NCBI GenBank assembly: GCA_025174535.1
Contig: JALBUN010000047.1
Location: 620,001-684,000, forward strand
DNA from: Cantharellus purpuraceus
Taxonomy: Eukaryota > Basidiomycota > Agaricomycetes > Cantharellales > Hydnaceae
DNA: 64,000 nt
Reading direction: 5' to 3'
Shown: piece after piece, positions 3 to 59,278 of the stretch
Numbering within the stretch: the first letter of the stretch is position 1
Layout of the letters: every line of letters begins with the position of its first letter
Notes under the pieces: model-generated
The model's database searches: none
Seen by the model: only the letters and a program-made list of their open reading frames with translations
What the model was told of the DNA's origin: nothing
Translations under genes and position numbers: made by a program

Positions 3-2555
3 GGCACTATGGTAGTGTTCATGGACGACATCCTCATTTTCACTGAATCCCTAGAACAACACCACACGATCGTGCAATCTGTCCTTGAAATTCTTCGGGC
101 CAACCACCTGTACCTCAAACCAGAGAAATGCCTTTTCTCGCAACAGAAGGTAGATTATCTTGGATTGATTCTCTCACAGGGACAGGTAGCTATGGACCCA
201 GTTAAGGTGGCTGGAGTCAGGGACTGGCCCACACCGCGCAATGTGACAGAAGTCAAATCCTTCCTGGGTTTCATCAATTTCTATCGTCGCTTCATTGAGG
301 ACTTCTCACATATCGCAAAGCCTCTGAATCGGTTAACAAAGGCAGATACACAGTGGTCTTGGATACCTGATGGCCCAGAACAAGAAGCCTTTGATAAACT
401 CAAGCAGCTTGTCACGTCAACTCCAATCCTTGTCCTCCCAGATCAAACCAAGCATTTTCGACTAGAGACAGATGCTTCAGCATATGCAACAGGTGCTGTT
501 CTATCTCAACTCTGTGACGATGAGAAATGGAGGCCGGTAGGTTTTGTATCCAAGAGCCTTTCAGATGCAGAGCGCAACTATGCCATCCATGATAAGGAAT
601 TGCTCTCAGTCATCCGTGGACTAGAAGAATGGCGCCACATCTTGGAAGGGACCAAATACAAGATTGAAATCCTTAACGACCATCAAAACCTCACATATTT
701 CTGTACAGCTCAAAATCTCAATCGTCGACAAGCTCGCTGGTCACTATACCTTTCTCGTTTTGACTTTGAACTGATCCACCGTCCTGGACGACATTCAGCC
801 AAACCTGATGCCCTCTCACGACGTGTAGATCATAAGTGGGGGGAGGAAGATAACCAGAACCAGATTCTTCTTGGCCCTGAGCTGTTCCACATCGATGCGA
901 CATCCACCTATCCAGGGCCAGAAGCTCAAATGATCACAGGAGAAGGAGACATATTCCTGGAACGTGTGCGGAACTGCACCAACAGAGATGAAAAGGTTGT
1001 AAAGGCTCTTAAGGAACTTGGCCCCTCTCGGAATTTATGAGGACAGGAATGGACCGAGGAGAATGGACTCGTCCTCTATCGTGGCAAGGTATATGTCCCT
1101 CTTGACCCAAAATTGCGCCATGACATTGTAAGGGCACACCACGATACTCACATTACAGGTCACCCTGGTCGCTGGAGAACAACAGAACTTGTATCCCGCA
1201 GCTACTGGTGGCCTGGATTTGGACGATACATTGCCAAATACGTCAAGGGATGTGACCTCTGCAATCGGACAAAAACTTTCCCTGCTCCTCCTATGGGTAA
1301 ACTCCTGCCTAATCGTGTCCCAGATCGGAGGTGGCAAGTGATATCTGTTGACCTTATTGTAGAACTACCCATCAGCCATGGCTATGATGCACTCCTTGTC
1401 ATTGTGGACCGTCTTTCCAAACGAGCACATGTTATCCCTACCACCTCTGACATCAACTCCATAGGAGTTGCACGACTTTTACGAGACCATGTGTGGAAAC
1501 ACCACGGCCTTCCTGAGGAGATCATCAGTGACCGTGGCACCCAGTTTGTCTCTCAATTTATGCGTGAGCTCAATAAGCTTTTGGGGATCAAGGTTGCAGC
1601 ATCCACAGCATATCATCCACAAACCGATGGTCAGACGGAAAGGGTCAATCAAGAAATTGAACAATACTTGAGGCTTTTCGTCAATCAGCGCCAGGATGAC
1701 TGGATTGAGTGGGTTCCTCTTGCTGAATTCACATACAACAACCGCATCCACTCCTCCACGCAATCAACCCCCTTCATGCTTGATACAGGCCAACACCCAA
1801 GGCTTGGGTTAGAGCCAATCCGAGAGACACGACTTGAAGCACTGGAAGAATTCACTGAGCGTATGGAGACAGCCACCACTGAGGCTCGCTCCGCCCTGGA
1901 AAAGGCAGCAGATGATATGGCACGATTCTATGATGCCCATCGGCAAGCAGCCCCAGTATACAAACTTGGTGACAAGGTCTGGCTCAATGCACAAAATATC
2001 ACCACCACCCGTCCAACCAAGAAACTTGATCACAAATGGTTAGGACCGTATGTGATTAATAAAGTGGTCTCACGAAATGCCTATGGCCTACGACTTCCCC
2101 CAATCTTTGGTCGCACTCATCCAGTGTTCTCTGTTGTCTTACTCCGTCCTTATGAAAAGGATCCCATCCCTGAACGCCAGTCATCTCCTCCACCACCTCC
2201 AGTCATTCGAGATGGAGTACAGGAATATGAAGTTGAGAAGATCCTTGACAGCAGAGTTTTCCGAGGAAGACTGGAATACCTGGTGCGTTGGAAGGGCTAT
2301 GGAGCTGCTGACGACCTCTGGATCCCAGCTAAGGATGCCAGTGGGGCTAGAAGGCGCATTGCAGACTTCCATCAGGAAAATCCTGAAGCCCCAAGGCGTA
2401 TTTCGGCAGCCACCTATGCGGCTCTTCCCTTCAGACGCTTTGAGAACTTCACAGAACCTCCCAAACAGGTCCTCTTTGATTGGACAGCTGGCAGGAACCC
2501 AACACGTGGTATTGGACACATTTCAGAGCCGCAGAATAGGCACAGTGAAGCTTAG
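3..2555 (+). pseudogene. A1 pol: RT C-terminus, RNase H, integrase, chromodomain
   Basis: This is the C-terminal two thirds of a gypsy polyprotein that would copy element RNA into DNA and integrate it in the nucleus. Visible in order: the RT active site written FMDD near position 21, the RT connection (FLGFINFYRRFI), RNase H with ETDAS and HDKELL, an HHCC zinc domain (HITGHPG to GCDLC), integrase catalytic D in [10 protein letters not shown] in SDRGTQF and E in DGQTERVNQEIEQ, then a chromodomain ([16 protein letters not shown]) near the C-terminus. The frame is open except for one TGA at 1038-1040, where A2 has CGA, so a single C-to-T change breaks it. No frameshift was seen. Confidence 0.92.
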
Positions 2556-2593
2556 CGCTCACCAAATTCATCCATGCCGAAATTCCACTAACT

Positions 2594-2601
2594 GTATATA
2601 A
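2594..2601 (+). promoter_or_regulatory. TATA box for A1 extra ORF
   Basis: TATATAAG lies between the pol stop and the extra ORF, 61 bp upstream of its ATG at 2662. The same box is present at the matching place in A2 and A3 (read on the minus strand near 38019 and 17661). The position suggests a separate internal promoter and not read-through from the LTR. This is inference from position and sequence only. Confidence 0.5.
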
Positions 2602-2661
2602 GCCAGTGAATCCACTTCCCCTTCCTCAGTAAAACCATCATCGTTCACTACCCAACCCACC

Positions 2662-3099
2662 ATGCCTTACCAGTCTGAATCCACCCCTCTACGCTCACTC
2701 CGTTCCTACCCCTCAATCACTTGGTCAGTTGACTCAAGGGATACTGCACGTGCTGTAGAGGATTATAACCTCCCATCTCCACCTCCACAAGTTCATTTCC
2801 CCTTCTGGCATCGTAATCCATCCAGACGCCAGACATACTACATCGGGGACCCTCTATTCATCGGCAAATATGACATACCATATGCCTTCCAAGGGCTCGC
2901 TGGTAAAGTCACCTATGAGGGAGGGGAGATGATACTTGGGGCAGTTTTCAGCACGAACAATCCCATATCCCCTGGAGAGTTCACCATCCCACTTTACCCC
3001 AAGGCAGAGAAGAGTCACCATCAACACTCGTCATGGGCTCTACTTTGGCAGAGAGTGAGAAGGGACCTTGCAGAGTGCTTCAGGGTGTGTCTCTCTTGA
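2662..3099 (+). CDS. A1 extra ORF (ORF3), 145 aa, unknown function
   Basis: An intact 145-codon sense ORF sits between pol and the 3' LTR. I do not recognise a domain. It is rich in Pro, Ser, Tyr and aromatic residues, with a central stretch PPPQVHFPFWHRNPSRRQ followed by YYIGDPLFIG, and has no obvious signal peptide or membrane segment. A2 keeps a near-identical full-length copy, A3 a frameshifted one, and the E2 element carries a diverged relative with the same order of motifs. Its own TATA box lies 61 bp upstream, and the ATG is preceded by a C/A-rich leader. Conservation between two gypsy families argues for a real gene. A non-viral cargo, a Gag-like or a regulatory role are all possible and none can be chosen. 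Confidence 0.7.
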   Translation: MPYQSESTPLRSLRSYPSITWSVDSRDTARAVEDYNLPSPPPQVHFPFWHRNPSRRQTYYIGDPLFIGKYDIPYAFQGLAGKVTYEGGEMILGAVFSTNNPISPGEFTIPLYPKAEKSHHQHSSWALLWQRVRRDLAECFRVCLS

Positions 3100-3139
3100 G
3101 ATGGATGGGACAATAGTGCATATCGAGACGACATGCATT

Positions 3140-3152
3140 AAGAGGGAGGTGA
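3140..3152 (+). other. Polypurine tract of A1
   Basis: AAGAGGGAGGTGA directly precedes the 3' LTR, the expected plus-strand primer site. The reverse complement is found at the same place next to the A2 and A3 3' LTRs. Confidence 0.8.
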
Positions 3153-3514
3153 TGTCAGGGTTCAAATAAGTCATATTCTATTTTTAGTATTTTCTCTTGA
3201 CACCCCTATCAGCACAGCCTGTCAGGGTGCGTCTCCCCTATTTCATTGCCCCTATCACTTCCCCTATCTTTCCTCCCCTATCTTGGTTCTCCTATCCGTC
3301 TCCATCATTTAGTATAAAGACTCGCCTTGGTGCAGTGTGATCCCCTCAGCTTGATCTCTGAGGATATCCGCTGTACCAGGTAAGTCCCATGTATTTATCA
3401 GAAACAGCTGTATAGACTGAGGATATCCGCTGTACCAGCTGGCATTATTTCTTATCGGCTCTCACTTATTGAGTATCTTGTTGTTGTGGCCTCATCATCA
3501 GCGTCGCCCTCACA
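3153..3514 (+). repeat. A1 3' LTR
   Basis: A 362-bp LTR beginning TGTCAGGG and ending CCCTCACA. A TATAAA box lies at 3313-3318. Downstream, a 22-bp sequence occurs twice (3358-3379 and 3417-3438); the first copy is followed by GTAAGT and the second ends in CAG, which together look like a 59-nt intron. The other family A LTRs in the window match closely. Confidence 0.93.
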
Positions 3515-3529
3515 CCAGCTTGCTTAGTC

Positions 3530-5289
3530 TGGCGAAGACCATAGCATCCACCATCAATATAAACGGAGGGGTAGATGGAGTATCTATCGGAGTGGAGTCA
3601 GCGGAGGCGGAGGATAATTTCGCACCTATAGTTGCTGGTGACGTTGGGGATGACACAGCCTGTGCTGGAGAACGGAATGTGATATGGCCCAATGCCCAGT
3701 CAATCAACGGATTGTAGCGGGTGAGCCAGTTATGTCCGAGAACCACAGAACCACAGAACAGCTGGAGTCAAGTGGAGTAACATAGAATGTAAGGGTCTGG
3801 ATTTCTCTGACAGAAAAACGGATAGACAGATCTATAGCTTGTGAAATAACAGCATTAGTAGTGCCATCTAATAATCGGAGTGGTATCGGAGTTATGGCGT
3901 ATGTATGGAGTTTATGTAAATTGGAAAAAGAGGAATTGAGGAAACAGTGAGTAGAACCGGAGTCAATTAATGCTTGAATAGCGGTATCGGGAATGGAGTT
4001 GGAGTGGACGAGGAGGGTAAGGGAGTTGGAGTGGACGAGGAGGGAAAGGGAGTTGGAGTGGATGAGGAGGGTAAGGGAGTTGGAGTGGGAAAGAGCGGAT
4101 GCGTTCAGGCAGACCTCGTTTGTTGTACAGGGAGTACCAATGCAGCCCTCAGCCCGTACGGAGGCTATAGGACTGCTTACTATTTTTTTTGGTCCATCGT
4201 GGCGTTGGTGGCGTGGCCCTTTGCCTTTGCTGTGGACAAGGTTGCCTTGTTGCAATCCTTGGCTTGGTGACCAGGCTTTCCACAGAACAGACAGAGGTTG
4301 TTGTCCATGCAGCGCTGGCATTCCTGCTGGATAAGTTTCCCATCCTTCCCCAGCTTGGTGGAGAGGTCCGGAGTACTCTTGCAAGCTCTGGAGTTATTGC
4401 TGGTGCCAGAGTTGTTCTGACCAGAACCGGAAGCGGCAGCATTACCAGTGTTTGACTTCTGGCCTCAGTTGGCAGTGGCCCACTTATCAGACCCCTTGTT
4501 GGACTTTGGGGTCTTGTCTGATGATTTGTCCGATTTGTTGTTGGCTGAATTTTCACGGGAGACCTCGGATTGATGTTCCCAATAACGGGCGTTGATGGAT
4601 TGGGCGAGCTTGCAGAGGGTATCTGGCTTACCGACGTGTGATATCTCGTCCTTGATGCAGGATGGGAGTCCAACGTAAAATTGGCGTCGGAGTGCGGCAT
4701 CGCCCCATTGGACTTTCAGAGCTAGCTGCTGGAAACTCACAATGTATTTTGCAATTTTGTGATTTTCCTTCATCCGAAGTCGATCGAGTTCGTTCTCGGC
4801 ATTGGCCTCGGGGTTGTACGGACCGAAATTGGTCCGAAGTTCAGATATGAAGTCAGAGTAGTCCTCTGACCATATCGGGTCATTGGAGTCATCCATGAGC
4901 GCTGGCTCGAAGTAGTCCAGTGCGGTGCCCTTGAGATAGGACATGGCGAAGGTGACCTTCGCCCAATCGGATGTGAATGTGTCGGGGCGGTTGCGGAAAT
5001 TCAACTGGCATTGCACCAAGAACGGCTGGAGTTTGCACGGATCGGAGCCATCGAATGGGTCGGGTTCTCGGACCTTGGTCCAGGACTTAGGAGCTTGTGG
5101 GTTACGGATGCTGCTGGCGAGCAGGGAGATGGCTTGCGCCAGATTTGGAGAGGGCAGGGTGTCGTCTTCTTCATTGACGGTCTCTATGTGGTCCGTCAGT
5201 TCCTCGACGACCTCGGGGATGGTGTCAATGCTGGGGGTGGGTACCTCGACGATTCGTGCGCATTCGGAATTGGCGGTGGATCATGGCAT
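3530..5289 (-). pseudogene. B1 gag and protease region, decayed
   Basis: Gag would form the virus-like particle and the protease would mature it. The expected ATG is at 5289; the third codon is TGA where B3 has CGA, and another stop lies near 4465. Recognisable parts are a capsid-type region around 5019-4600 (DALDYF-like and FYVGLPSCIKDEI motifs), a Ser/Lys/Asn-rich linker, remains of a CCHC knuckle near 4300 in another frame, and an aspartic protease site DSGSTHCF near 3950. Frame changes and stops show it is not functional. The cut at 3515 is the A insertion. Confidence 0.85.
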
Positions 5290-49049: not shown

Positions 49050-49625
49050 TGTTATGACTATATTCATTAACGCCCAGATCCCCGTCCGATCCCCTCAGAT
49101 CCCCGCACATATGAAATCTATACTCCATTTGGAAACCGCTACATCTCCATCTACCTGTCCGATTGTCACCGCCAATTCCACCCATCCGTCTCTGGTTCCG
49201 ATTGATGCATCAGCATCACCATAGGAACCCAGACATCCATCCCCATTGGACTCAGACATACTCATGTAAGGCCGTTGGCCTTGGAGACCCATCACCAGAG
49301 TAATTATTATTAGATTTCAAATATGTATTTAAGTTGCCTGACTGGGGACTTCATTCCCCAGTTCAAATATTTGATCACACCTAGCTCCTAAGTCCGATCC
49401 TAACTCTCTAAGTTGTACTCCATCTCCAAAATCTCGGACACCGGTATTAGTGAGGGTGCAGCACATAAGCTGAAGCCAAGTCCGTTCCGACCCCCATGAC
49501 GTACTCCGACCCCAACCCAACCTCCAACCCAACCTCCAACCCAACCTCCAACCCAACCTCCAACCCAACCTCCAACCCAACCTCCAACCCAACCTCCAAC
49601 CCCCAATCGGACCTAGTGTGTAACA
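49050..49625 (+). repeat. B4 3' LTR with expanded tandem repeat
   Basis: 576 bp, longer than other B LTRs because a CCAACCCAACCT-type 12-bp unit is repeated about eight times at 49508-49605. Other LTRs have two or three units. Ends GTGTGTAACA. Confidence 0.9.
49508..49605 (+). repeat. Tandem array, 12-bp unit
   Basis: About eight near-perfect units of AACCCAACCTCC inside the U5-side of the B4 LTR. Probably replication slippage on a shorter array present in all B LTRs. Confidence 0.85.
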
Positions 49626-49981: not shown

Positions 49982-50384
49982 GGAACCATAGATGGGTCCG
50001 GTGGAATTGATCAGGTGGAACGAGCGGTGAGGAATATCGGATCGGAGAGGTGAACCTGGAATGTGTGAGAGCCATCCAGTTTGCTTAGTCTGGTGAAGAC
50101 CATAGCGTCCACCAGTGATATAAACGGCAGGGTAGATGGAGTATCTATCAGAGCGGAGTCAGCGGAGGTGGAAGATAGTTTTGCACCTACAGTTGCTGGT
50201 GACGTCGGGGATGACACAGCCTGTGCTGGAGAACGGAATGTGATACGGCCCAATGCCCAGTCAATCAACGGATTGTAGCGGGTGAGCCAGTTATGTCCGA
50301 GAACCACAGAACAGCTGGAGTCAAGCGGAGTAACATAGAATGTAAGGTTCTGGATTTCTCTGACAGAAAAACAGATAGACAGAT
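49982..50384 (-). pseudogene. B5 protease-RT linker, right part
   Basis: Family B sequence on the minus strand from [13 protein letters not shown] through [18 protein letters not shown] to the point where pol would continue with the RT. It is cut by the C insertion at its 3' side and by transposon G at its 5' side (CAGAT). The continuation of the RT is B2 at 13200. Confidence 0.85.
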
Positions 50385-50474
50385 TATGGTTGCCGAGGAG
50401 TATCACAGCAGTTACAACATGTCTTGTAACATCGTACCATGGCATATGTATTGTTGTTTATGGACGACAGTGGT
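50385..50474 (+). repeat. G left terminal inverted repeat
   Basis: 90 bp, identical to the reverse complement of 55530-55619. The two ends diverge right after the shared GACAGTGGT. A perfect repeat of this length suggests recent movement or homogenisation. Confidence 0.95.
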
Positions 50475-50551
50475 CTTTTCGAGCGCTAGTCTGTTCCCAT
50501 TCTATGTTGCAACTTCTATACCAGCACCAGTGAGGCGTCTGGGTGACAACC

Positions 50552-51992
50552 ATGGTGAGAAATCAACGCACAGGCTGCCGTGAGTCCCAACCAATCTAAT
50601 TATATGATTCATTATTTATGATATCACGTCGGTGATAGCACCTGCCGATGATGATGGGGTTTCTACTATTCTCAAGAAGTATGATTGTGTTGGTATATCA
50701 GGTCAGAAAATGGTTAGTAGGATGCTGCTTGCTGAACATGGAATAACCATGAGGTATGTCCATTTGCTTGGTTCTTATATCCTCATTAATCCTTATACAA
50801 CAAGTGAGGCAACTGTGGCCCGGCGGTGCAAGTTGCTAGGGCTTAAGGGCAGCAAGGCTACAACTGAAGAACTATCAGAGGTAGAGATACGGCAGCTTGT
50901 GTTAGATCAGCTTGAAAAAGACCCGAATCATCGAAAAGGTCCACGTCTGATTAGAGAGGCCATTTGCTTCGATACAGGTATTACACTCAAACGGTGAGTA
51001 TCACTTAGCAAAGATTTCTGCACTACGTTATTAATACTTGCAACAGTGATGTTGTTGAAGATGTCACGCATACGCATGATCCTGAAGGGTTCACCCTTCA
51101 TGAACCTACAGCGAAGAGAATCTATCGCATGGCTCTGGTATCAATTGGACCACATGAGTTTTGGAGTATGGATGGTCATGATAAGCTAAATAGAATTGGG
51201 TTTCCTGTATATAGAATCCAGGATGTGTGGACTGGAAAGTGGCTGGGTCTCTGGACGGTCCCAAACAACCGGTTGAAGAATGTTATTGCGTATCTCTACC
51301 TTAGTCTTATTGAAGAGTTCAAAGGTATTTTTTTTTTTTACCTTCACATTTTTATCTTAGTATGTACAGGTATGCCCCTGCAAACGACATCAGACTGCGG
51401 CACAGAAACAGTTGAAGTCTATGGCCTTGCTAATACTCTAAGGTACGCACACATACATATACATACGTATAAATCTAATACAAATGTAGGGAAGTATTCT
51501 CACCTGACCTGCCGATTGATGAGGTTCCGGCGCATCGATTTCTACATAGTGTCCATAATATTACCATAGAGCGTGGATGGCTCAGTCTTTGTATGTCTTA
51601 AATATGCAGACTGAACATGGACTTATGTTTAGTATAGTGATCTAGTGCAGTGGCTCTGGCCACTGCTCATACAGCAAGAGCTCAATGAAGTCAAGGAACG
51701 ATTTAATAACCATCCAGTGCGCTATAACCATAATAAACTGTTGCCATCAGGGGTTTCACCAAACGTGGTATATGCAACATTCAAAGATTATGGAGCGATA
51801 AACTGCCTCCAGCATGTGGATATCACCGTTGTAAGTAGACTTAAAGCAGATATTGGTGGTGAATATTTGGTTCAGTTTGTGTCATCTCAGTATGCTGCTC
51901 AGTGCAAAGCAGCATATGAAACACTTTCCATTCAGAAGCTTACTTTACAGAATATCTGGACTATTTTTTCGAGTATGCTACTGCTTATCTAA
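50552..51992 (+). CDS. G transposase, integrase-like DDE enzyme
   Basis: Proposed exons: 50552-50579, 50639-50993, 51047-51324, 51370-51442, 51490-51590 and 51646-51992, all with GT-AG introns of 45-59 nt that keep the frame. About 390 residues. The N-terminal half resembles a helical DNA-binding region (VSRMLLAEHGITM, ARRCKLLGLKG). Catalytic residues: D in WSMDGHDKL (51171), D in TSDCGTET (51393), E in HNITIERGW (51569), spaced D-x58-D-x42-E, as in integrase-core proteins of fungi and animals. The C-terminal part has VQWLWPLLIQQEL and NNHPVRYN. The start at 50552 is chosen because the exon 1 donor and phase fit exon 2. The last junction is uncertain: YSDLVQWLWP would read one exon start earlier (51633) but is then out of phase. 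It may be active or have one small defect. Confidence 0.8.
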
Positions 51993-52187
51993 AGTGAGCA
52001 AAGGGTATTCAAATATTACTAGAGTAGTGTAGTACTGTGAGTAAAGGACAGTTCAACAAAGGGTCTAATGAGGGTGGAATGACGAAGCTGGCGGATTAAA
52101 TGGTCTATAGAAAGGGTAGTCCGTGTGATTCCAAGTGTTATGCAAATAAAGGCTTTTTGCCTGCATCTTTGAAGGTGTCAAATTAAG
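51993..52187. other. G intergenic region between convergent genes
   Basis: About 195 bp between the transposase stop and the kinase stop. It likely holds both 3' UTRs. No other signal recognised. Confidence 0.5.
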
Positions 52188-55134
52188 CTAGCATGAATCA
52201 AAACCACACGTACCAGTATGTAACATAGAGTGAGGTGAGGCCAAATAGCTATTTGATGCCGGTTGTACGGCACTGGGTACATTGACTTTTGGTAATTCTG
52301 AGAGTTTAAGGCAATGGCATATTGGATTGCAGCGATGTGTTTCAGTGAACTTCTTAATATATGAGGGTCCGTTATCCCACTCTCCTTTATCACTGAGTTT
52401 GGTGTCAGTAGATAAGTTAACTGAACAAAAGCACCACTCACGTGTGTGCCTGAGGATCGTAAAGTGTCAGGTTACCCTGTGCATCAATCAGGCCTAGTAC
52501 ATCACATTAGAACCGGTGTTCAAACAAGAAAATGACTCACCTTGCAAATCTGCAAGTACCATGTTCTCAGCCATGTGGTCAAAGACTGAATGTGCAAATG
52601 CATCTATAATTTGCCCCAAGTCGTCTTCATTTACACCAGCTGTATCATAACCTGAATATTTTATCTCGGTCCCGTGCAGTAATGGTGCGACTAGAATAGT
52701 CTTGAACTGAAGATTACAATCATCCATTTCATCTGGTTCTGGACGGGGTAAAAGATTGCTAGTAATACTACCAAGGAATGCACCGGCAGCATTCCATTTA
52801 ATATCTTACATATTGTCCAAATTAACCAGCAAATAGAAGAAAATCAATGCAACTTACTATGCCTGATTACAGTGTCGTAATGCTTTGCTCGGTGGAAGAA
52901 TTCATCTAACAAGACTTGAGCCTCATGGAGCAGCTGAAGCTCATCAAGTAGAGCCTTATAATTGTTGGCCTCTGAAACATTGGAACTAGTGGACCAGTGC
53001 CTTAAATGGAACACTGCATAATCAATAGCACCAATGCGTCCCTACCCAAAGACCATTAAGCATGAAGAAATACTTGTAGTCTAAATACTCACCCGAAAAG
53101 CCCACTTAGTCATTCCAAGGTAACCTTCTCCAGGCCCAATGTATTTGCGTGCATGTGTGAACCAGCCCCTAGGCACTAGAATAGTCTCTATATCATTGCA
53201 TGTAACGTTCTCCACTCCACCATCATCTGATGCTACACAAAATGTCTGGTGAAACTTGTATGCATTGTACAAAAGTTGCGGGCCCCTTAGAGAGGGTATG
53301 CGATAGGCACTGACATATGCTGGTCATTTGCTAGCTTGAGGCGATGTCTCACCTTTAGTGTGGTGAGTTAAGTCACGGTATATATTAGTCACACATACCA
53401 CAGTCTGCTTTCTGCTTCATGCTACGAGTTATAAAGTTTGACACACTTTTTTTTGGTGAGGCGTCACTAGTAGTATCCTCCTCCTCAGAATTCTATTATT
53501 ATTGTTAGCCATTGAAATAGAAGGCAACAGCTACTTACCACTGCAATTGCTCTCTCATATACATAGATGCGCATGGTGAGAGAGTTAGAGCGTAGATCCT
53601 TCTCTGAAATTGCATTGATGGACTTCAGACTTTCAATGAGGCTCCCAAGCGTCTGCTCCTCCTCAAGTATTTTCCTTTCATCAATTCCCACACATTGCCC
53701 CTGTGCTCTTGCTACAGCAAACTCAACAGTCCCACTAGTTGGCCCCTTCTTGTAAATATGCAGATATTTGAAGCATTGTAAGGCTTACCGTTTAAACTGA
53801 GGGATTTGAAAATCATCTTTGTCTTTGTTTGCCAGGCATGCAAGATAATTAATATGTGCTTTATTTAAGAGTGTGTTGAAGACTGCATCGGCCTGATCTG
53901 TTGAATGACAGGCGTGCACCATGGGAGCCATTTGAACCTATGTAGTAATTTAGTACCTACATAGATGGTGTTATTTATGCTACTTACCTTTTGGGCTTGG
54001 CCTGTATTGCGGCCCATCGACGGGTATGTATAGAGTGTGAATATAATTGATGTTGAGGTACTGGACTTAGCTTGCTTTCTGAGCACATGCTGTTTTGAGT
54101 TGATGTTGTGAGCAGACAGAAGATTTGCGTTGATGCCTTGTTTCACTCGTTGGTCAAGACGATGTGTTGAAGCTTGCTGTTGATGGAAGGATGCACGCTC
54201 GTGGATCGCATCTATATCTGGAACACCACAGGCAGGGTCAGGTCAATCCATACGTACAAAGTTCAAACATACCATGCATCACTGCCTTAACACATGAACG
54301 GCACATCTTTTCCATTAAATAATCAAAGACAACACCACAGCCTTGACACTGTGGCTTAGCCTGAAAAACTTATTAGCTAAAATGCCACCCCTAGAATGAT
54401 GCACTTAGACGCTTGTTCAGAAATACATCAAATATGTATATACAACCCATTTCCTCAAATTTTATATAATATACTTATATTAAAACATATTTTGATATTT
54501 CATACATGATTCTTAAATTTATATAATTTACTTAGATTTAAAACATATTTTGATATTTTGACATGATTCTCAAAAATAATTCTTTTTTTTTCATTTACTG
54601 GTGGCAACTGCTTCAAGGGAATATTCTACTCCTGCTACACTTAATTTCTTTCACTCATTCTTTCTTGTACTATACTGGTCAAATAATCTAATGTACCTTG
54701 ACTCCTCACCTGGCATTTGTATATCTAAATATTCTCTATTATACCAATAATATTAGTATATATATTACTGTTATATTCATATAAATAATTATGTTCATCC
54801 ATAACAAACATCTTATCTTTTAAAGTTTATTAAAATATGAAATATATATTTATATTTATAAAAATTTAAGATATCCAAAAAAAACTTGGATATCCGAAAT
54901 CTTTAAAGATATCCAGATTGTAACTCCCTATTTTTATGATCATTATTAAAATTCTGATGTACATCTTGTATACATCAGAATATTGTATAACAGCATCCTT
55001 CCAAACAAGTGTCTTACATGAATCGCTTGTCGTTCTAGCTCAGACTCAACAGAGTCCTTTTTCACACACCGCATGCAACAAACATGAGGTAGAAGATGTG
55101 GGAACTCCTCTGCACATCCTGGGCAACATCCCAT
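52188..55134 (-). pseudogene. G alpha-type protein kinase gene, one nonsense codon
   Basis: Eleven proposed exons on minus: 55134-55018, 54360-54273, 54217-53988, 53937-53789, about 53750-53538, 53492-53399, 53352-53093, 53041-52858, 52804-52541, 52493-52442, 52392-52188; about 620 residues. The N-terminus has two zinc-ribbon-like pairs, CPGC/CMRC and CQGC/CRSC. The kinase domain shows a Gly-rich loop IGPGEGYLGMTKWAFRGRIG, then YAVFHLRHW, DAFAHSVFDHM, LADLQGLIDAQGNLTLYDPQ and the closing zinc motif HRCNPICHCLKL typical of alpha-kinases. The usual ATP-binding Lys is not obvious (YAVF where YAVK-like is common). A TGA at 53326-53324 stands where CGA is expected, and the phase of the fourth junction does not resolve cleanly. 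Would phosphorylate Ser/Thr if repaired; substrate unknown. Confidence 0.82.
54408..55013 (+). mobile_element. MITE copy 2 in the first kinase intron
   Basis: 606 bp, same ends as copies 1 and 3, TTA duplication at 54405-54407 and 55014-55016. In gene orientation it sits inside the first intron, at the splice donor: GTAAGT became GTAAGA followed by the MITE. A roughly 48-nt intron is now about 660 nt. Confidence 0.86.
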
Positions 55135-55529
55135 GATGTGAAGAAAAAAATTGTACTGAGTAGGGTCCAATATTGTCTCCCTTATATACGCAATTGGCAG
55201 AATGTTGAAAAAATAGCATTGAAACAATGCTGTACATGGAGAGATAATCCACCATTGTCGGAGCGGGCAAGAGGGGTCTTTCACACCCTTCACAAAACTA
55301 AGATAGACGCAGTAACTGAAGTTATCCAGCGCAGTCTTCAACTTGGATGACTCTATTTAAGAACCTGGGGAAAATATATCTTATGCTCCTTGTGTCTCTT
55401 AGCAGCAGGACACAAGGGTCGGCAACGGTGGCGCATTGGTGAGGTCACTACGTAGAATGTTGGCAACTTCAAAGTTTGGAACAGAAGAGTATTTGCCACG
55501 GAGCGCTGTGAATGGCCAAGCGTGAGGAA
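55135..55529. other. G subterminal region upstream of the kinase gene
   Basis: Holds the likely kinase promoter. An in-frame extension upstream of the chosen ATG runs to 55341 but lacks family-like sequence, so the start at 55134 (MGCCPGC) is preferred. No clear TATA box identified. Confidence 0.45.
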
Positions 55530-55619
55530 ACCACTGTCGTCCATAAACAACAATACATATGCCATGGTACGATGTTACAAGACATGTTGTAACTGCTGTG
55601 ATACTCCTCGGCAACCATA
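55530..55619 (-). repeat. G right terminal inverted repeat
   Basis: 90 bp, perfect inverse of 50385-50474, followed by CAGAT. Confidence 0.95.
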
Positions 55620-55624
55620 CAGAT

Positions 55625-56974
55625 CTATAGCTCATGAAATAACAGCATTAGTAGTGCCATCAAATAATCAGAGTGATATCGGAGTTATGGTGTATGTGTG
55701 GAGTTTATGTAAATTGGAAAAAGAGGAATCAAGGAAACAGTGAGTAGAACCAGAGTCAATTAATGCTTGAATAGCAGTATCGGGAATGGAGTTGGAGTAG
55801 ACGAGGAGGGTAAGGGAGTCGGAGTGGGAAAGAGCGGATGTGTTCAGGCAGACCTCGTTTGTTGTATGGGGAGTACCAATGCAGCCCTCAGCCCATATGG
55901 AGGCTATAGGACTGCTTACTATTTTTTTGGGTCCATCGCTTTTGCGTCGGACTTGTCCGTCGTGGCGTTGGTGGTGCAGCCCTTTGCCTTTGCTGCGGAC
56001 GAGGTTGCCTTGTTGCAATCCTTGGCTTGGTGGCCAGGCTTCCCGCAGAACAGACAGAGGTTGTTGTCCATGCGGCGCTGGTGTTCCTGCTGGGTAAGTT
56101 TCCCATCCTTCCCCAGCTTGGTGGAGAGGTCCGGAGTACTCTTGCGAGCTCCAGAGTTATTGCTGGTGCCGGAGTTGTTCTGACCGGAACCAGAAGCAGC
56201 AGCATTACCAGTGTTTGACTTCTGGCCTGAGTTGGCAGTGGTCCTCTTATCAGACCCCTTGTTGGACTTTGGGGTCTTGTCCGATGATTTGTCTGATTTG
56301 TTGTTGGCCGAATTTTCACAGGAGACCTCAGATTGACATTCCCAATAACAGGCGTCAATGGATTGGGCGAGCTTGCGGAGGTTAACCAAAGTATCCAGCT
56401 TACTGACGCATGATATCTCATCCTTGATGCAGGATGGGAGTCCAACGTAAAATTGGTGTTGGAGTGCGGCGTCGCCCCATTGGACTTTCAGAGCTAGCTG
56501 CTGGAAACTCACAATGTATTTTGCAATTTTGTGATTTTCCTTCATCTGAAGTCGATCAAGTTCATTCTCGGCATTGGCCTCGGGGTTGTAAGGACCGAAA
56601 TTGGTCTGAAGTTCGGAGATGAAGTTGGAGTAGTCTTCTGACCATATTGGGACATCGGAGTCGTCCATGAGCGCTGGCTCAATGTAGTCCAGTGTGGTGC
56701 CCTTGAGATAGGACATGGCGAAGGTGACCTTCGCCCGATCAGATGTGAATGTGTTGGGGCGGTCGCGGAAATTCAACTGGCATTGCACCAAGAATGGCTG
56801 GAGCTTTTGCGGATTGGAGCCGTCAAAGGGGTCAGGTTCTTGGACCTTGGTCCGGGACTTAGGAGCTTGTGGGTTATGGATGCTGCTGGTGAGCAGGGAG
56901 ATGGCTTGCACCAGATTTGGAGAGGGCAGGGTGTCGTCTTCTTCATTGACGGCCTCTATGTGGTCCATCGGTTC
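55625..56974 (-). pseudogene. B5 gag and start of protease
   Basis: The best-preserved B gag here: an open stretch of about 349 codons (56968-55919) with FLVQCQLNFRDRP, FYVGLPSCIKDEI, a charged Asn/Ser/Lys linker, and an intact CCHC knuckle CLFCGKPGHQAKDC near 56040. The protease site IDSGSTHCF follows near 55770 and is cut by transposon G. The first 40 or so residues are missing because B6 is inserted at GAACC; they should lie beyond the right end of the window. Confidence 0.88.
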
Positions 56975-57490
56975 TGTTACGCACTGGGTCCGATTGGGGG
57001 TCAGAGATTGGGTCAGAGGTTGGGTCGGAGTTGGAGTACGTTGTGGGGGTCAGAACAGACTTGGCTTCAGCTTATGTGCTGCACCCTCACTAATACCGGT
57101 GTCCGAGATTTCAGAGACGGAGTATGACTTAGAGAGTTAGGATCGGACTTAGGAGCTAGGCGTGATTTGATATTTGAACTGGGGAATGAAGTCCCCAGTC
57201 GGGCAACTTAAATACATATTTGAAATCTAATAATAATCACTCCAGTGATGGGTCTCCGAGGCCAACGGCCTTACATGAGTATGTCTGAGTCTGATGGGGA
57301 CGGATGTCCGGGTTCCCATGGTGATGCTGATGCATCAATTGGAACCGGAGATGGATGGGCGGAATCGGCGGTGACAATCAGACAGGAAAATGGAGATGTA
57401 GCGGTTTCCAAATGGAGTATAGATTTCATATGTGCGGGGATCTGAGGGGATCGGATGGGGATCTGGGCATTAATGAATATAGTCATAACA
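56975..57490 (-). repeat. B6 3' LTR
   Basis: 516 bp on minus. Inside, the B 3' internal end follows; outside, GGTTC (56970-56974) and B5 gag. The hairpin ACTGGGGA...TCCCCAGT is present near 57177-57198. Confidence 0.92.
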
Positions 57491-57592
57491 GTATCTCTCC
57501 ATTTAAGGCTGAGCCCCTGAGGCCTCATGTCCGTGGATTGAATAGGTGAGACAATTGGGCGCGGTCGGAGTTATACTGGGGGTCTGGAGACA

Positions 57593-57599
57593 TATAAAA
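57593..57599 (+). promoter_or_regulatory. TATA box of the B6 antisense ORF
   Basis: TATAAAA lies 33 bp before the ATG at 57632. A matching box occurs upstream of the antisense ORF at 15835, 28465, 36347 and 48940. This places transcription start a few bases before the ATG and implies an own promoter in the 3' internal region, firing towards pol. Confidence 0.6.
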
Positions 57600-57631
57600 G
57601 GAGGGGCATGATTGAGGTCTTATCCTCAACA

Positions 57632-59278
57632 ATGTCAAACCCTTTGGCAAGCATGAGTGTGGCCAAGCTGGAGCAGTTGCTCTTGGCCCGATGGAAGGAA
57701 GAGGAAGAGGAGCGGAAACGGAAGGAGGAGGAGGAGGCGGAATGGAGATGGAAGGAGGAGGAGGAGGCGGAACGGAGACGGAAGGAGGAGGAGGAGGCGG
57801 AACGGAGACGGAAGGAGGAGGAGGAGGAACGACGGAAAGAGGTGGCAAAAACGGAACGGAGAAGGAAAGAGGAGGAAGCGAAGGCAGAGAGGGCCCGCAA
57901 GGTGAAGGAACTTGCGGCAGCAATGGAGGCCGTGAGACTGAAGGAAGTGGAGGAGCAGGTGCATGAGTTAGAGGCCGCCATGGAGGTAGAGGAGGAGGTG
58001 ACCGGGGCAGGGAAAACCAGCCACCCAGGAAGTCCGAGCATGCCCATACGGCCAGGGACCCCGGAAGTCACCATCATCTCCATTACACGGACAGAGGCGA
58101 CTCGTTCGAGGACTGTCACTGTGGAGGACTCGCCGTTACATCCACGGGCACGGCCCTTATTTGAGTTGGGGGCAGCTGAGGAAGATGATGCGGCAGAGAC
58201 GGAGAGGGTGGAGGTGGAAGCGGATCCCGATGCCAATATGGAGCTTGACGCAAATGCGGAGCCCGAGGCAGGCGTGGATGTTGGGACGGATGCGGAGCCA
58301 GATCCTACTCCGAATTCTTACGAGGAGATGGCTTGGGTAGCTGTGGTCGAGGCTCGCAAAAGAGCGGAGCTCTATGCCGCTACCACCAAGAAGAACCTCG
58401 ACGTTGCGGTCTTTTCACTGAAGGCCTACCCAAGTGCTGATACGGAGAAGCGAGAGGTGGACCGGAGGGTCATATGGTGCAAGGCGGAGAGTCGCATGTT
58501 GGCAACCCGTAAGAAGGAGCTGTGTGTCGCAAGGTCGGCAATCCAGCTTCGCAAGTGCAAGATGGAGAAGGCGGCGGCAGAACAGCAGGACAAGGAGGAG
58601 GAGAGGGAACACTTGGAGGCCACAGCGAGGAGGGGCGGACCACCCAAGGCTCTGGCTCCAACAGAGCCATTTGGCGGACCCGGCGTAACTTGCGACTTGT
58701 GTCATGATGCGGGTGTGGAGTGCGTGTGGCCTACTGGCCCAACTCGCCGCCTTCAGTCCTGCGATCGTTGTCAGGGTTGGAAAGGAGGGTGTAGGATTGA
58801 TGGAAAGTTCGATCCCTGGAGTCGGAGTGTCAAGCCCCGACTAGTGGTACAAGGAGGGGTGGAGAAGGAATCGGAGGGTCGTCTGACCAAAAAGAGGCGG
58901 ACTGAGATGGGTGCTGTAGCAGCCGGGGGTAGCGGCATTGGATCGGAAGGGGCAACGACCGGTGCAGGTACGGGGTGTGTCTCTGCACCCAATAGCACCG
59001 TGGGCCAGCTTATCAGGCTGGTTAACCTGCAGTCGGAGCACCTTCGGTGGACGGAGGGGTTGTTAGTAGACTTGGTGAGGACGATGAAACAGAAGGAGGT
59101 TCTGGAGGGTCGTCAGACAGCCGAGTTACATTGGTTGCAGAAGTTCATGGCCCCGTTGGACGAGGATTCAGACATGGGAGATGAGAAGGATTGGGTGTCA
59201 GATGTAGAGAGTGATGAGGGGTCGGAGACGGAGCCTGAGGTAGATAAGGGAAAGGGGAAAAGGAAACGCGATGTATAA
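57632..59278 (+). CDS. B6 antisense ORF: coiled coil, Zn2Cys6-like cluster, 548 aa
   Basis: An intact gene on the strand opposite to gag-pol, between the pol stop and 3' LTR. Residues about 15-110 are Glu/Lys/Arg-rich coiled coil with imperfect 10-residue repeats; 150-240 is an acidic linker; 354-387 holds CX2CX6CX12CX2CX6C (CDLCHDAGVEC and CDRCQGWKGGC), the spacing of a fungal binuclear zinc cluster, though it lies mid-protein. A basic patch (LTKKRRTE) and a Lys/Arg tail (KGKGKRKRDV) suggest nuclear entry. The start at 57632 is preferred to the in-frame ATG at 57608, which is too close to the TATA box. The other B copies keep parts of it. Function unknown; a DNA-binding regulator of the element or its host is plausible. 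It ends about 165 bp from the pol stop, tail to tail. Confidence 0.78.
   Translation: MSNPLASMSVAKLEQLLLARWKEEEEERKRKEEEEAEWRWKEEEEAERRRKEEEEAERRRKEEEEERRKEVAKTERRRKEEEAKAERARKVKELAAAMEAVRLKEVEEQVHELEAAMEVEEEVTGAGKTSHPGSPSMPIRPGTPEVTIISITRTEATRSRTVTVEDSPLHPRARPLFELGAAEEDDAAETERVEVEADPDANMELDANAEPEAGVDVGTDAEPDPTPNSYEEMAWVAVVEARKRAELYAATTKKNLDVAVFSLKAYPSADTEKREVDRRVIWCKAESRMLATRKKELCVARSAIQLRKCKMEKAAAEQQDKEEEREHLEATARRGGPPKALAPTEPFGGPGVTCDLCHDAGVECVWPTGPTRRLQSCDRCQGWKGGCRIDGKFDPWSRSVKPRLVVQGGVEKESEGRLTKKRRTEMGAVAAGGSGIGSEGATTGAGTGCVSAPNSTVGQLIRLVNLQSEHLRWTEGLLVDLVRTMKQKEVLEGRQTAELHWLQKFMAPLDEDSDMGDEKDWVSDVESDEGSETEPEVDKGKGKRKRDV

Follow-up and report, generated by a model that had tools for sequence, protein, structure and literature searches.

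A decayed, probably IS3EU-type DNA transposon with an alpha-kinase as its second gene in Cantharellus purpuraceus

The element, its genes and its insertion site

We analyzed a 64,000-nucleotide stretch of the genome of the basidiomycete Cantharellus purpuraceus (assembly GCA_025174535.1, contig JALBUN010000047.1, positions 620,001 to 684,000; hereafter the window), which contains a 5.2 kb DNA transposon that carries a transposase gene and, convergent to it, an alpha-kinase gene (Table 1). The original prediction, made from the sequence of the window without database searches, had described the element as bounded by 90-bp perfect terminal inverted repeats (TIRs) and a CAGAT duplication. Both descriptions held: an inverted-repeat search of the window returned a pair of TIRs of 90 nt each that are 100% complementary, and CAGAT stands on both sides of the element. 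Empty sites, which the prediction had proposed to look for, were also found. The query for these consisted of both 200-bp flanks of the window copy, joined into 400 bases, and the comparison covers the window copy. All 40 scored places matched the query over all 400 bases at 95–96% identity, which is a lower bound (40 places scored, 541 candidates at first look). In each of the 12 loci read, the insertion site was present once and without the element, and in 10 of them it reads GACAGATCTATA exactly. Because uninterrupted target sites exist elsewhere, the insertion of the window element is real, and because the sequence of the empty site is known, its target duplication can be read as CAGAT (5 bp), or as ACAGAT (6 bp) minus one A. 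The target is a high-copy long terminal repeat (LTR) retrotransposon, and a gag frame (PF03732) lies at 55922–57049, beyond the right flank of the element.

Table 1. Features of the element in the window, and its end-bearing copies in the genome
Feature	Position	Strand	Remarks
DNA transposon, whole	50385-55619		5.2 kb; perfect TIRs and target duplication
Left TIR	50385-50474	+	starts TATGG; 100% complementary to right TIR
Right TIR	55530-55619	-	ends CCATA
Left target duplication	50380-50384	.	CAGAT; ACAGAT from 50379 if 6 bp
Right target duplication	55620-55624	.	CAGAT
Transposase gene	50552-51992	+	7 exons; rva_4 match in C49 copy; GT-AG introns in window
Transposase exons	50552-50579, 50639-50753, 50805-50993, 51047-51324, 51370-51442, 51490-51590, 51638-51992	+	
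Alpha-kinase gene	52188-55134	-	11 exons; convergent to transposase; PF02816; PDB alpha-kinases matched
Alpha-kinase exons	55134-55018, 54360-54273, 54217-53988, 53937-53789, 53734-53539, 53492-53399, 53352-53093, 53041-52858, 52804-52541, 52493-52442, 52392-52188	-	
Miniature inverted-repeat transposable element (MITE)	54408-55014	.	about 600 bp, high copy; within kinase intron 1; later insertion, not an original part of the element
End-bearing copies	C47 (window), C49:1459039-1467475, C45:2296486, C6:1187198, C45:611042, C20:452199, C6:781017/785252		named by contig

The predicted spliced transposase gene was recovered with its catalytic residues in place, namely D 51171 (GAT), D 51393 (GAC) and E 51569 (GAG). 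Its least certain exon is the short first one (28 bp). In comparison with a second copy of the element on contig C49, the window gene is missing 79 bp where exon 6 ends, and its frame is lost downstream. When spliced, the C49 transposase is open over 405 codons, has its DDE residues at D153, D212 and E255 (42 residues separate the last two), and matches Pfam PF24764 (rva_4) at 40.8 bits (cut-off 26; E 2.5e-10), although the donor site that follows its 28-bp first exon is AT and not GT. An exon-wise search of the genome with PF24764 gave seven matches, all under the cut-off and none within the element, which shows that this kind of search sees little of a spliced transposase. A PDB search with the transposase returned unrelated chains only (best E 0.39), and IMG/VR scans with the transposase and with the kinase found nothing.

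The kinase gene, predicted as an eleven-exon gene convergent to the transposase, was likewise recovered, with all of its introns GT-AG and a gap of 195 bp between the two genes. Judged by its sequence, it is a member of the alpha-kinase family PF02816: the spliced window gene matches this profile at 64 bits (cut-off 21.3; E 2.5e-17; profile positions 35–185), and a PDB search gave 11 sequences at E ≤ 1, including 4kuj ('protein kinase, putative') as the best (4.2e-7), eEF2 kinase (3.3e-6) and myosin heavy chain kinase A (MHCK-A; 5.6e-5); alpha-protein kinase 1 (0.021) and the TRP-channel kinase (0.026) were weak matches. As in MHCK-A and eEF2K, and to a weaker degree in the TRP-channel kinase, the PF02816 domain is combined with DLQG, DPQ and HxCNxxC motifs; the window kinase differs from MHCK-A and eEF2K by its location in a transposon and by a pair of N-terminal Cys4 modules, each composed of two Cys-x2-Cys pairs and resembling small zinc modules. 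The only Pfam hint for this N-terminus was Vps36-NZF-N, below the cut-off (E 0.043); besides PF02816, no Pfam domain, and no chromatin domain, exceeded its cut-off. A kinase homologue search scored 7,996 candidates, none at E ≤ 0.001, in a database that is apparently poor in fungal proteins. As to the hallmarks named in the original prediction, LADLQG and HRCNPIC are kept in the window gene, as is DPQ, but the glycine-loop motif that it quoted is two residues short: six bases are lost in the glycine-rich loop of the window copy, which reads GYLGMTKWAF where C49 has GYLGKGMTKWAF, and both C49 and C6:785k retain the two missing residues. In addition, codon 301 of the window kinase is an in-frame stop.

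The MITE in kinase intron 1 is missing from the C49, C6:785k and C20 copies. It alone accounts for 37 of the 48 listed matches in the genome search, and two of these 37 are only 77% alike. Its ends, reading inward, are GACGCTTGTT and GACACTTGTT, with TTA at both borders.

Copies in the genome and the kinase as cargo

The search of the host genome with the 90-bp end, proposed in the original prediction, covered 40.15 Mb in 50 contigs and gave 10 matches. Because an LTR-type insert divides one of the ends, these stand for nine ends, which belong to seven copies. Both ends are kept in two copies (window and C49), and one end is missing in the other five. The C49 copy has TATGG..CCATA ends and an exact 6-bp duplication (CCCAAT), and its kinase gene is interrupted by an LTR-type insert. 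Transposase sequence occurs in six of the seven copies (all except C6:785k, with C20 retaining the tail only), kinase sequence in five (C47, C49, C45:2296k, C20 and C6:785k), always in the same orientation, and sequence of both genes in four. The gene junction lies in an unbroken alignment in C49 (element positions 1204–2560) and is collinear in C20, but with a 521-bp insert. Moreover, transposase and kinase are alike within a copy in their identity to the window (97.1 and 96.9% for C49; 96.6 and 96.7% for C45:2296k). An eighth locus (C45:573–582k) contains transposase pieces without ends. Both genes are broken in the window copy, and no copy among those compared appears intact.

At the protein level, all 40 genome matches of a 612-residue kinase query (E ≤ 0.001) fall in the five kinase-bearing copies, and all three matches of PF02816 in the genome (E ≤ 0.01) fall in element copies. 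The transposase query gave 19 matches, 15 of them in end-bearing copies and the other 4 in the one end-less cluster on C45. These protein and Pfam searches were run exon by exon, and a very divergent, intron-rich gene could escape them. Since both genes are found in four of the seven copies and all 40 kinase matches in five copies, the view that the kinase belongs to the element and travelled along as its regular cargo is supported, as the prediction had supposed. In the C. purpuraceus genome, a few copies account for the alpha-kinase matches, and all of these are cargo.

The prediction had also reasoned that other copies without the kinase, or a separate insertion of the kinase with its own duplication, would reduce the pairing to a chance capture. 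Two copies do lack the kinase. One is truncated (C6:1187k, in which the match ends at element position 708), the other is internally deleted (C45:611k, deletion 1584–4797, no left end found), and neither is therefore an intact form without a kinase. Nothing suggests a separate entry of the kinase: the window search found no second long inverted-repeat pair around it, though no search was aimed at short duplications at its borders. Nested elements are certainly frequent (the MITE sits in a kinase intron, three copies other than the window one have LTR-type inserts, and C20 holds the 521-bp insert), but it is extremely improbable that the kinase entered the window copy alone, given that kinase sequence is found in five of the seven copies, in the same orientation within the element. 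A host gene family with a transposon around one member by chance has just as little to recommend it: alpha-kinases are counted as an expanded or enriched family in rust genome papers, as far as their available text goes (PMC4469406; PMC5295586, Table 3, with an enrichment of 2.34), but the 40 Mb searched here contain no kinase match outside the element at the thresholds used. We thus rejected single-copy capture, nested insertion and the host-gene reading.

Three of the seven element copies were struck by LTR-type inserts (L016 3189–6903, L015 4887–6318 and L020 554–4752), one of which sits inside a TIR. These inserts share alike ends (TGTATGGG..CCAAAACA), and 5-base overlaps fit 5-bp duplications. 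The window itself (1–64000) consists largely of nested transposable elements, because 9 of the 10 open reading frames (ORFs) scanned, out of 27 with at least 200 codons, match gag or pol domains of LTR retrotransposons, gypsy-like with a chromodomain and copia-like. Beside the retrotransposon gag lies a 578-codon open frame without a Pfam match (57542–59275), and a tandem 12-bp repeat (CCAACCCAACCT) lies near the left flank of the element (49512–49602). An Rfam scan of the window gave no matches.

Placement among IS3EU-type elements

We consider the element very likely to be a decayed cut-and-paste DNA transposon of the IS3EU type in which the alpha-kinase is a standing second gene. Its termini, target duplication, gene order and rva_4 match apparently place it there. 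Specifically, IS3EU transposons described from seven rust species have 6-bp duplications, TIRs of more than 30 bp and TAYGG..CCRTA ends, according to the available text of Kojima (2025; PMC12730594). The present element agrees with these in its TATGG..CCATA ends, its 90-bp TIRs and its duplication (exactly 6 bp in the C49 copy, 5 bp or 6 minus one A in the window), as well as in the alpha-kinase gene that lies opposite to the transposase, convergently here. The original prediction knew of no description of this pairing, which was mistaken, as the same paper describes it: all TET+ IS3EU families, among them one from Tuber indicum, carry a TET/JBP gene between oppositely oriented transposase and alpha-kinase genes. 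In the literature found, so far as its text was available, the pairing is stated by this paper only. The pairing was thus already in print for related transposons, but in the present genome every alpha-kinase match that the searches returned falls within a copy of the element.

Unlike the TET+ families in the available text of Kojima (2025), the window element has no TET/JBP gene in the 195 bp between its two genes, and the genome Pfam search gave no TET/JBP (PF12851) match in any element copy. For these two reasons, the element belongs outside the TET+ group of fungal IS3EU. The host, too, is probably unlike the rusts: seventeen hydrophobin matches and nine DUF6534 matches in its genome, eight of the latter above the cut-off, point to a mushroom-forming basidiomycete. 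The genome as a whole has only two PF12851 matches (34.2 and 27.4 bits), both below the 34.9 cut-off and both on contig C15; they correspond to two TET/JBP-like frames 16 kb apart (C15:137734–154124), outside the element copies, that possibly represent another transposon or a divergent family.

Polintons carry polymerase and capsid genes, and Ginger elements make 4-bp duplications. We rejected both as candidates: gene modelling gave two genes for the 5.2 kb, the ORFs scanned showed no further family, and the duplication is 5–6 bp.

Other published elements resemble this one in part, as their available text describes them. IS3EU/GingerRoot elements (PMC10045372) have TA..TA termini, usually 6-bp duplications and an IS3-like DDE transposase, in all of which the present element is alike, whereas the main text of that paper does not contain the word 'kinase'. 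Styx of Zymoseptoria (PMC10853768) likewise combines an IS3EU-related transposase with extra genes; it has a 36-bp TIR, its copy search applied a 6-bp duplication length, and among its four coding sequences no alpha-kinase is named in the available text. According to a meeting report (Kapitonov; PMC3520738), Intons are fungal elements that arose from IS3EU and gained conserved proteins; the number of proteins encoded by Entons and Intons is given there as five to six. IS3EU elements have also been reported in the Agaricomycetes Ganoderma (PMC8955403) and Phlebopus (PMC12411881), where the available text does not mention a kinase.

Decay, movement and the role of the kinase

Almost every difference between copies is a transition. 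The window and C49 differ at 115 of 4,628 aligned bases, 111 of these differences being transitions and 75 lying in a CpG context; in the other five compared copies, transitions make up 109/114, 105/109, 52/56, 25/28 and 50/58 of the differences, with 50, 47, 29, 19 and 14 in a CpG context. The CpG share of the differences is thus 24–68% across the six copies. This pattern suggests that the copies are relics that decay as methylated repeats would. The differences mostly reflect decay after insertion and carry no information on earlier selection.

A number of points weigh against an IS3EU-type element with a standing kinase gene. First, as it stands, the duplication is 5 bp rather than 6 bp in one of the two complete copies (the window), and the superfamily placement is drawn from the features listed above. 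Second, where the conserved glycine loop would lie, ahead of HxCNxxC, the kinase has a motif that looks degenerate. Third, there is no clear codon-position bias among the differences (31/31/28 between the window and C49), and exons diverge more than introns in five of the six compared copies (3.03 versus 1.25% in C49; the exception is C45:611k); because of these two observations, no constraint is seen between the copies at the level of sequence. Fourth, the stop at codon 301 is found in three of the four copies that cover this codon (window, C20 and C6:785k, not C49; C45:2296k lacks coverage), and a second change adjacent to it is common to the same three. Since the stop is accompanied by a second shared change, inheritance from an already-broken kinase source fits better than repeated mutation. 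Stop-bearing copies from such a source would therefore have needed no working kinase in cis, and these three copies may have been mobilised with help in trans. Finally, the helper role that we assign to the kinase below is itself a tentative one.

We propose that the DDE integrase-type transposase recognised the 90-bp TIRs and excised the element, and that reinsertion by a staggered cut would have produced the 6-bp (here perhaps 5-bp) duplication. Cut-and-paste movement of this kind is well supported by the anatomy of the element and by what is established for DDE elements in general. For the kinase, the role that we favour, tentatively, ahead of inert cargo and then of anti-silencing, is that of a trans-acting helper of transposition, which would most likely phosphorylate the transposase or a host nuclear factor and let transposition proceed, with its Cys4 modules possibly binding DNA or a partner. 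A function is suggested because the association with the transposase lasts across the published rust and Tuber elements and the window element.

The kinase could instead be inert cargo that was captured once and carried along with no role in transposition, an alternative that we regard as a serious contender though not the favoured one. The absence of a purifying-selection signal between copies and the shared stop with its neighbouring change would both be expected of such a gene. However, the TET+ IS3EU families of seven rust species and one Tuber all have the transposase together with the alpha-kinase, according to the available text of Kojima (2025), and an inert gene would hardly be expected to persist so widely; the signal between copies, moreover, would mostly be that of decay after insertion. 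A role in anti-silencing, in which the kinase (or its TET/JBP partner in other families) would modify host chromatin or methylation factors, appears rather unlikely. The abundance of transitions, many of them in CpG, makes cytosine methylation of repeats a plausible threat in this host, and the rust relatives have a TET/JBP gene beside the kinase (PMC12730594, as far as its available text goes), but Pfam gives no chromatin domain in the kinase and no target is known.

Returning to the kinase as a helper of transposition, we tentatively suggest that transposase and alpha-kinase may form an ancestral core of fungal IS3EU elements that predates the capture of TET/JBP, with the kinase working in transposition, in which case most PF02816 expansions of rusts and mushrooms would be cargo. 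The original prediction took a great expansion of alpha-kinases in Agaricomycetes as known, but our literature searches found no report of an alpha-kinase expansion reaching this class. In rusts, PF02816 has been described not only as expanded or enriched (see above) but also, in one case, as a single gene among 46 genes under diversifying selection (PMC4150398), and in their available text none of these three papers draws a link between PF02816 genes and transposons. The basidiomycete 'alpha-kinase expansions' in gene counts may be transposon cargo. The present finding is of value for its clean genome-wide result and because it puts counts of the alpha-kinase family in doubt. If the pattern in which all kinase matches lie in a transposon holds elsewhere, PF02816 family counts will have to be masked, and phosphorylation-controlled transposition could be tested on a eukaryotic transposon that brings its own protein kinase.

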